A stretch of DNA of 36,997 bases from Streptomyces sp. AcH 505 (GTDB lineage: Bacteria > Actinomycetota > Actinomycetes > Streptomycetales > Streptomycetaceae): NCBI RefSeq assembly GCF_000818175.1, contig NZ_JTIY01000001.1, positions 2,728,609-2,765,605 of the forward strand, in the 5' to 3' direction. How positions within the stretch are numbered: the stretch's first letter is position 1; each line of letters begins with the position of its first letter. The notes under the pieces are model-generated. The model did no database searches. It was not told where the DNA came from and saw nothing but the letters and a program-made list of their open reading frames with translations. Positions 10,033-18,873 of the stretch are shown here, piece by piece. The translations under genes were made by a program, and so were the position numbers.

Positions 10033-10353
10033 GCAGGGAGTGCAGGGACCTTGCAGGGAGCCGTGCAGGAAGGCAGGGACCTCCCTGCACGGCCGTTGAG
10101 CTGCCGGTACGCAGGGAGGCAGGGAGTTGCAGGGACTTCCTGCCAGTCCCTTACTGCACACAGGCGTCACATGCGTCATGCGCAACATGCGTATTCGTAT
10201 GCGCATCGCGTCCTGAAAGAGGTTCTCCGGCACGTAGGGCTAGAGATATCTCCCTGCAACTCCCTGCCTCCCTGCAAAAACCCAGGTCGAGCCGCGTGCC
10301 GGAGTCTTCCCAGCTCCCTGCATGCCTCCCTGCAGCTCCCTGCAACTCCCTGC
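10033..10353. repeat. Mirror-image iteron array, candidate replication origin
   Basis: The 367-bp gap 10010-10376 between the two replication genes carries GCAGGGA on the plus strand at 10033, 10042, 10053, 10073 and, after a gap, 10111, 10119, 10129; then a 115-bp centre; then its complement TCCCTGC at 10251, 10261, 10269 and, after a gap, 10315, 10327, 10337, 10347. That is a 4-3 / 3-4 mirror arrangement, with most units 8-12 bp apart. One extra inverted copy (10082-10088) makes a local hairpin with 10073. The centre holds four ATGCGY units (10171, 10178, 10187, 10199) and a near-perfect ATGCGTAT/ATGCGCAT dyad. Iterons beside an initiator gene suggest an origin; function is inferred. Confidence 0.75.
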
Positions 10354-18399: not shown

Positions 18400-18687
18400 G
18401 TGGCCGGCCGCACCGACCTCACGAGCTACGACTACCGACAGGCCCGAGCACGCTGCCTCGCAGAGTCCGACGTCTGCATCGTCTGCGGCCACGGGGCGGC
18501 CGACGCCGTCGACCACATCCACCCCGTCAGCAAGGGCGGCGCCAAGCTCGACCCCGACAACCTCGCCCCCATCCACGGCGTGCTCGGATGCCCGACCTGC
18601 GGCCGCAAGTGCAACAACGAGAAGGGCGACCGCCCGTTGTCGCAGGTCACAGCCCTGGTGACGTCGCGAGACTGGTACACCAGGTGA
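18400..18687 (+). CDS. HNH endonuclease next to terminase
   Basis: 95 residues from a GTG at 18400, preceded by GGAGG. Motifs: zinc ligands C26xxC29 (CIVC), the catalytic AVDHIHPVSKGG (His39), a middle DPDNLAPIHG, second zinc pair C64xxC67 and CNNEKG. This is the complete treble-clef HNH fold. In many siphoviruses a small HNH protein beside the terminase genes is needed for specific cleavage during packaging, so this may be part of the packaging machine rather than a homing enzyme. It is separated from the small terminase by 320 bp of repeat-rich non-coding DNA. Confidence 0.88.
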   Translation: MAGRTDLTSYDYRQARARCLAESDVCIVCGHGAADAVDHIHPVSKGGAKLDPDNLAPIHGVLGCPTCGRKCNNEKGDRPLSQVTALVTSRDWYTR

Positions 18688-18723: not shown

Positions 18724-18873
18724 TGACCTGCACCTATGCGCAAACCTAGGCAAACGTGCAGGTCAGAGCGTTGCGGCTGTAGCCGAATGGCGTGAGGAGC
18801 GCGGCGCCCAGACTGCGGTGCCTTGACCTGCGGCGATGCAGAGAGTTGCACAAACATGCAGGTCAGCGCGTTG
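18724..18873. repeat. Two dyads exactly 100 bp apart upstream of terminase
   Basis: First dyad: TGACCTGCAC (18724-18733) / GTGCAGGTCA (18756-18765). Second: TGACCTGC (18824-18831) / ATGCAGGTCA (18856-18865). Each right arm is part of a longer 22-bp direct repeat (18752-18773 and 18852-18873), with two differences. Left arms, right arms and spacing are identical in both copies. The gap 18688-19010 has no gene I can support. The site could be an operator pair for late genes or a cos/pac recognition element next to HNH-TerS-TerL. Confidence 0.7.

Follow-up and report, generated by a model that had tools for sequence, protein, structure and literature searches.

What does a dense array of short, facing repeats do between a primase-polymerase gene and a helicase gene of Streptomyces sp. 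AcH 505? The array occupies positions 10033 through 10353 of a 36,997-nucleotide stretch of contig NZ_JTIY01000001.1 (herein the window), and a preliminary description made from the sequence had read it as a bidirectional origin with initiator bound on both sides of a melting region.

Genomic setting and layout of the array

The gene upstream of the array (7331 through 10009, forward strand) encodes an initiator of 892 residues (herein PP). Residues 14 through 201 form a Prim-Pol domain (Pfam PF09250, E = 3.3e-7); the best structural match of the N-terminal domain is 1rni (E = 5.6e-6), and the protein matches PHROG 19930, DNA polymerase/primase. Its middle part contains, by eye, a P-loop-like GSGKS at residues 602 through 606. 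The downstream gene (10377 through 11987, forward strand) encodes an SF2 helicase (ResIII/DEAD, RadD-like; Pfam ResIII, E = 2.5e-29) that scores well below the cut-off of the NCBIfam RadD model. The array begins 23 bp from the PP stop codon and ends 23 bp before the helicase start. A phage-type integrase gene (3113 through 4684, reverse strand) adjoins a tRNA-Thr gene (2995 through 3071), and the later genes of the window are phage-like (their names are borrowed from the related plasmid NZ_CP108372.1); the element is therefore a prophage, housed in a genome of 9.0 Mb. An exact 18-base seed scan of the window found no att-like direct repeat. An FtsK/SpoIIIE-like gene (15801 through 17909) lies in the phage early region, 5.4 kb from the array.

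Within the 321 bp from 10033 through 10353 there are 15 exact copies of GCAGGGA, compared with a maximum of 2 in any 321 bp of 60 simulated windows (first-order Markov); the whole window holds 21 copies on both strands, against a shuffle mean of 7.76. The preliminary description had placed the array correctly and counted seven units pointing right and seven left; the exact counts are 7 right and 8 left (>>>><>>><<<<<<<), its list having overlooked the left-pointing copy at 10082 through 10088 and two near-copies. The latter are one-base variants at 10065 through 10071 (GCAGGAA, right) and 10137 through 10143 (left), and with them the order becomes >>>>><>>><<<<<<<<. The left outer group (10033 through 10079, forward strand) comprises right-pointing units at 10033, 10042, 10053 and 10073 and the variant at 10065; the lone left-pointing unit of the left half (10082 through 10088, reverse strand) is part of the clearest short-loop hairpin of the array (10060 through 10093). 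The left inner group (10111 through 10135, forward strand; units at 10111, 10119, and 10129) faces the right inner group (10251 through 10275, reverse strand; units at 10251, 10261, and 10269), and the right outer group (10315 through 10353, reverse strand) has units at 10315, 10327, 10337, and 10347. When the variant at 10065 is counted and the units at 10073 and 10082 are omitted, unit spacing is itself mirrored: read towards the centre, it is 9-11-12 and 8-10 in the left arm and 10-10-12 and 8-10 in the right arm. The array also amounts to a long, imperfect inverted repeat: of 108 positions, 76 agree between arm 10028 through 10135 and the reverse complement of 10251 through 10358, and outside the units 26 of 44 agree.

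The centre (10145 through 10250), the presumed melting region, is AT-richer than the window (AT 0.45 vs 0.31). The ATGCGY repeats attributed to it are there, kept as a run only in the closest relative (L006); the dyad also attributed to it exists as an exact 7-bp ATGCGCA, the sole exact dyad of at least 6 bp in the centre, and is chance-like. GC skew gave no sign of an origin on the prophage or on NZ_CP108372.1 and is uninformative.

The array in relatives and in pWTY27

Relatives were gathered by protein searches, and PP, the helicase and the intervening gap were mapped by script, giving 19 distinct PP-array-helicase loci with the window included (L002 through L005 and L069 are the window itself). 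L008 and L035 were dropped as copies, their origin segments being the same as those of L021 and L007; L070 and L071 share origin centres with L038 and L042, and L075 and L080 are one gene. An array lies between PP and the helicase in all 19 loci. L033, in which no helicase relative was detected, was kept outside the 19-locus analyses and checked separately; it has an array downstream of PP nevertheless.

The closest relatives place the fourth right-pointing unit at the position of the 10065 variant, so that they follow the plan [4 right + 1 left] - [2-3 right] - centre - [3 left] - [3-4 left], where the preliminary description had given 4-3/3-4. Among the GCAGGGA loci, the distance from the units to the helicase start is preserved, often to the base. 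With a generic unit GC(A/G)GG(G/A)(A/T), a left outer group of three to five right-pointing units is found in 11 of the 19 loci, and the lone left-pointing unit in 10, all among those 11; the left outer group is shorter or differently oriented in the other eight (L007, L032, L038, L039, and L041 through L044). The constant parts of the plan are the inner groups and the right arm, and in these eight loci the mirror is imperfect. Words found in the 19 loci are GCAGGGA, GCAGGAA mixed with GCAGGGA (L020 and L021), GCGGGGA, and GCGGGGT.

Conservation in close relatives had been proposed as a check; the array is kept there, and more distant phages with PrimPol and helicase lack it, no such array appearing in the stretches scanned of Gordonia Trine, Mycobacterium LilMcDreamy, Nocardia KYD2, and Corynebacterium BFK20 (L111 through L114). 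Inside ORF39 of BFK20 (3864 through 4280 of L114), CTGGAAC and CCTAACC each occur eleven times as direct copies in ~410 bp. The automatic scan likewise found no such mirror array in Actinoplanes phage phiAsp2, Arthrobacter phage Eileen (L061 and L062), L048, or L053 through L055, and the automatic rule called none in RepA-type L078 and L079.

NZ_CP108372.1 (L001), a circular plasmid of 34,477 bp from Streptomyces sp. NBC_01335, carries a related PP, an array and phage genes, and no further gene annotated as replicative, which indirectly supports autonomous replication from such a region. Like this plasmid, the three genome-contig matches come from Streptomyces. With its integrase, phage structural genes and similar origin, it is a phage-plasmid or an excised prophage. 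Two further sets of loci combine the parts differently. L045 through L047 keep the helicase and, of PP, the Prim-Pol part alone (63 to 64% identity); their word is GGTACGCA. L022 through L025 keep the helicase (73 to 75%), have no PP relative that we found, and use words of the CGTTACGCA/CGGTTACGCA type. By eye, the inner groups of both sets face each other and the outer groups are not strictly mirrored. These loci look like natural module swaps around one origin, the initiator being of the DUF927 type where tested (L024, class C; L045, class B); of these two, only L024 has the Cch HTH domain (HTH_56) above cut-off.

The preliminary description had not recognised the precise mirror plan from a described origin. 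A precedent exists in pWTY27, published as direct and inverted repeats and the only case among the titles and abstract starts of the open-licence papers searched. In a tblastn comparison with plasmids, pWTY27 RepA is 46.1% identical to PP residues 335 through 866 (E = 9e-127), and the C-terminal 60% of PP is homologous to it; PF09250 also occurs in pWTY27 RepB, and a Prim-Pol partner is common to both systems. Replication of pWTY27 in S. lividans is reported to need repA, repB, and a 300-bp downstream region, the 149-bp piece 382 through 530 of the repeat region being insufficient; RepA gel-shifts the repeat region in vitro, with footprints at 405 through 447 and 462 through 509, and, once telomeres are joined to it, the locus is maintained in linear form, a result that the authors interpret as bidirectional replication (PMC3583192).

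We read the region downstream of RepA as >>< TGACCTGC >> centre << GCAGGTCA ><<, with the word GTGGGAA(C). In our mapping, the footprints cover only the inner groups, on either side of a 14-bp unprotected gap; the TGACCTGC and GCAGGTCA boxes lie just outside the footprints, and the 149-bp piece is without the outer groups. NZ_CP108626.1 (L058) has a plan of the same kind. The prophage element resembles pWTY27 in its RepA-homologous initiator, its Prim-Pol partner, the direct and inverted repeats directly downstream of the initiator gene, the inner groups that face the centre, and the position of TGACCTGC/GCAGGTCA between inner and outer groups; all three features of the pWTY27 type that can be tested by sequence are present. 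The two differ in that Prim-Pol and RepA are separate genes in pWTY27 and one fused protein in the prophage, in the word (GTGGGAAC in 10 exact units vs GCAGGGA in 15), and in that pWTY27 is a conjugative element without a detected SF2 helicase relative, whereas the prophage element is a phage. Elsewhere on pWTY27 (6068 through 6493), twelve direct copies of CGCGAAC lie within a DUF2637 gene.

Repeat word, initiator C terminus, and a constant box

The third base of the repeat is A in 7 and G in 12 of the 19 loci, and PP residue 873 is Cys in 7 of 7 proteins with GCAGG and Lys in 12 of 12 with GCGGG. Nine PP columns fully separate the A and G groups, all between residues 377 and 873; only residues 619 (Ser/Ala) and 873 (Cys/Lys) are fixed in both groups. 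The helicase alignment of the 19 loci has no column that separates them. On trees, the word label changes five times for Prim-Pol residues 1 through 370 (all five forced by supported branches), three times for PP residues 400 through 700 (one forced), three times for the helicase (one forced by supported branches), and once for PP residues 760 through 880 (74% of bootstraps; support 73/87). In the 19-locus group, the A and G words may have parted only once. Lys also accompanies GCGGG in L068, L072 through L076, and L060 (7 of 7) and in L033. At the GTGGG loci residue 873 is Gly (pWTY27, L057) or Ala (L058, where GTGGG and GCGGG tie at 7 each), and L059 has Asn and yet another word. L065, L077, and L079, with Lys in the 873 column, were left uncounted because of an unclear GC(A/G)GG array or an unsure alignment.

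AlphaFold2 (AF2) models PP residues ~798 through 881 as three helices and a hairpin, a winged-helix-like arrangement with block pLDDT of 82 to 92 in the core; residue 873 falls in a turn between strands, at the modelled wing tip. AF2 confidence is low for the middle ATPase part of PP. For the C-terminal domain, Foldseek returned no significant match. A PDB sequence search with alignment A2 also returned none. A second structural comparison of the C-terminal domain placed many winged-helix proteins, such as MarR regulators and Z-alpha, among the 50 matches listed, with Z of 5.3 to 6.8, a range (Z < 8) that may reflect a common arrangement. The repeat word follows the C-terminal winged-helix-like domain of PP, notably residue 873, a relation that may be new. 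The linkage may be partly physical, because the PP stop codon is 23 bp from the array, and recombination alone could keep the end of PP and the array together. The helicase start, at an equal distance of 23 bp, needs three label changes, of which supported branches force only one.

A second element recurs with different words. The box GCAGGTCA was first spotted by eye in array classes A to C and in pWTY27. It occurs exactly in 9 of 11 arrays of these classes and pWTY27-like plasmids (14 sites vs 0.45 expected, as estimated from the remainder of each locus), the exceptions being the window and L001, and in six of nine other arrays (7 sites vs 0.38 expected; spans set after the array scan). The arrays of L056, which has facing GGGGTGA units, and of L059 and L060 also contain no exact box. 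We searched 394 Streptomycetaceae genomes with pWTY27 RepA and obtained 13 rows, 11 with arrays by the automatic rule; the 7-mer CAGGTCA occurs in 7 of the 11 (14 sites vs 0.53 expected), and in 5 of 7 after removal of the window, a duplicate row, and two copies of known origins. For a D5-type initiator query, two of the best 30 loci of a longer list have at least seven units, and both are boxed; of the remaining 28, a single locus is boxed within the scored span. Box orientation varies between arrays. One locus of the search set, L068, has an extended array ~27 to 546 bp past the initiator stop, with 16 CGGGTAC units (nine one way, then seven opposite) and four CAGGTCA-type boxes, two per direction.

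Only 3 of the 19 PP-array-helicase loci contain the exact box. The window has a degenerate left copy, TGAGCTGC (10097 through 10104, reverse strand; consensus TGACCTGC), and a degenerate right copy, CCAGGTCG (10282 through 10289, forward strand; two mismatches to GCAGGTCA); because one-mismatch copies are expected at ~0.5 per 240 bp, these rest on their place in the alignment and not on their number. The initiators differ in their domains: Pfam detects DUF927 in L024 and L045 and D5_N/DUF5906 in L049 and L052, and neither DUF927 nor D5 in PP, pWTY27 RepA, L058, or L060. The SF2 helicase was considered as the reader of the box and rejected. L049 through L052, L057, L058, L068, and L076 are boxed and gave no helicase match at E 1e-3, although the stretches of L068 and L076 span ~4.4 kb and a helicase further off would be missed; since L049 through L052, L057, and L058 have the box without a helicase match, the helicase is not needed for it. 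No GCAGGTCA occurs in the 3.5 kb around the sole pair of DnaA boxes found in the chromosome, a site that, with only two DnaA boxes, may not be oriC. The box recurs in mirror arrays with other words and initiator types, which is possibly new, and its reader is perhaps a host factor. The main text of the pWTY27 report has neither GCAGGTCA nor TGACCTGC as a word or the start of one (PMC3583192), and in the phage phiJoe paper the box string is part of a cloning primer for the int-attP region.

Box sequences are also found outside arrays. In the window, TGACCTGC-N26-GCAGGTCA dyads lie at 18724 through 18765 and 18824 through 18865, 100 bp apart, in a gap between an HNH gene and the presumed terminase genes that holds another exact GCAGGTCA at 18642 through 18649; L001 has a single dyad copy in the matching gap. 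These dyads are perhaps an element of a packaging site. The Streptomyces phages Xkcd426 (L063, 2596 through 2777) and YDN12 (L064, 2950 through 3131) each have an inverted pair of GCAGGTCA boxes separated by 174 bp, in the gap between the primase gene and its divergent neighbour, with no iteron array by the scan; the YDN12 pair encloses, by eye, a long inverted repeat. It is possible that these pairs are origins of a different design.

The array as an origin and other readings

The array is real and conserved and, as judged by comparison of sequences, very probably a functional bidirectional iteron origin; homology makes bidirectional initiation, from initiator bound to either side of a melting region, the best reading. 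It builds on the array itself, the conservation of its plan, the concerted change of word, the covariation of the C-terminal domain, the homology to pWTY27 RepA, and the enrichment of the box elsewhere; from these we infer melting, two assemblies, priming and a role for the box. The fused primase-polymerase/ATPase initiator would dock on the GCAGGGA units through its C-terminal winged-helix-like domain, which is the likely binder rather than the Prim-Pol domain. Each mirror-image group would hold one initiator assembly; the two, facing opposite ways, would flank the AT-richer centre and melt it, so that two forks depart in opposite directions; the Prim-Pol domain would prime, and the neighbouring SF2 helicase would assist. 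Residue 873, at the modelled wing tip, may help decide the word that is read. The GCAGGTCA-type box between the outer and inner groups, which does not depend on the word, would be read by something probably other than the iteron-binding surface of the initiator, perhaps a host protein. That a temperate Streptomyces phage starts its replication at this array, with initiator docking, facing assemblies, residue 873 and the second box all included, we hold to be likely.

Comparable systems share parts of this design. At SaPI origins, two repeat sets flank an AT-rich stretch. The initiator helicases SaPI Rep and SCCmec Cch and Cch2 recognise iterons directly downstream of their own gene through a C-terminal domain, and binding as two hexamers has been proposed (PMC7581432). 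The prophage iterons likewise lie directly downstream of the initiator gene, starting 23 bp past the PP stop codon. The helicase domains of SaPI Rep and Cch are of the DUF927 or D5 type, whereas Pfam detects neither domain in PP, and none of the 17 members of alignment A2 has one; the element is not filed as SaPI Rep type because PP is without these domains. ORF904 of the archaeal plasmid pRN1, the protein of structure 1rni that best matches the N-terminal domain of PP, is likewise a fused Prim-Pol replication protein, comparable in the Prim-Pol domain only, and the pRN1 origin is not known to be a mirror iteron array. The pRN1 minimal replicon includes 166 bp downstream (PMC4234260). Actinomycete integrative and conjugative elements (ICEs) of the SLP1 type have a Prim-Pol gene followed by a second replication gene (RepPP), and pWTY27 is given as a probable excised ICE (PMC3218068). 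The PLE satellite has an initiator of a type other than PP (PMC7145576).

Other functions for the array have to be weighed against an origin read by PP. Iteron arrays can double as operators, and the helicase start is 23 bp past the array end, so that the initiator or a phage repressor might bind the repeats solely to control the helicase gene, with replication starting at some other site. Yet the homologous pWTY27 region is needed for replication, though no helicase relative was found there, L033 retains the array without a detected helicase relative, and seventeen mirrored units over 320 bp seem excessive for an operator; we regard an operator as unlikely. Marginally less probable still is an origin whose units are read by another phage protein, PP being recruited only afterwards. 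A small HTH protein (5892 through 6197) that resembles excisionase-type DNA-binding domains, with scores just under the model cut-offs, or the helicase could be that reader, and physical closeness can explain the linkage of the word to the PP C terminus. Against this, pWTY27 RepA, homologous to the C-terminal 60% of PP, binds its own repeats alone in vitro (PMC3583192); the helicase has no residue that separates the two word groups; and L022 through L025 combine a 73 to 75% identical helicase, no detected PP relative, and a different word.

The array could also be the recognition site of the phage FtsK/SpoIIIE-like protein, in the manner of clt of Streptomyces conjugative plasmids. The prophage does have such a gene, and Tra translocases bind repeat-rich clt sites; on pWTY27, however, clt is a separate locus at the tra gene (PMC3583192). 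Sites of the clt kind adjoin the translocase gene, whereas the prophage array adjoins the primase gene, with the FtsK-like gene 5.4 kb off, and its word follows the PP C-terminal domain. We consider this reading highly improbable.

Reading the array as an origin recognised by PP gives these unnamed repeats an origin model that is testable in a laboratory Streptomyces. The model offers a reason for the pWTY27 footprints and for the insufficiency of the 149-bp piece, which has the inner groups and boxes and no outer groups, and natural variation would yield a readable rule of protein-DNA specificity. More tentatively, and with the balance of our judgement against it, Streptomyces phages and plasmids may share one origin architecture, in which facing iterons carry a word set by the initiator winged helix, largely through its wing-tip residue (Cys for A, Lys for G, and Gly or Ala for T before GGGA) and the GCAGGTCA box stays constant across at least three initiator kinds (PP/RepA, DUF927, and D5) owing to recognition by a conserved host protein. 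The constant box hints at a factor common to phage and plasmid origins and bears on how the host replication machinery is recruited, and the facing groups with the box may help to locate origins in actinobacterial phages and plasmids that are not annotated. If the shared architecture is true, GCAGGTCA would act generally in actinobacterial theta origins, as a host-dependent site for licensing or for helicase recruitment.
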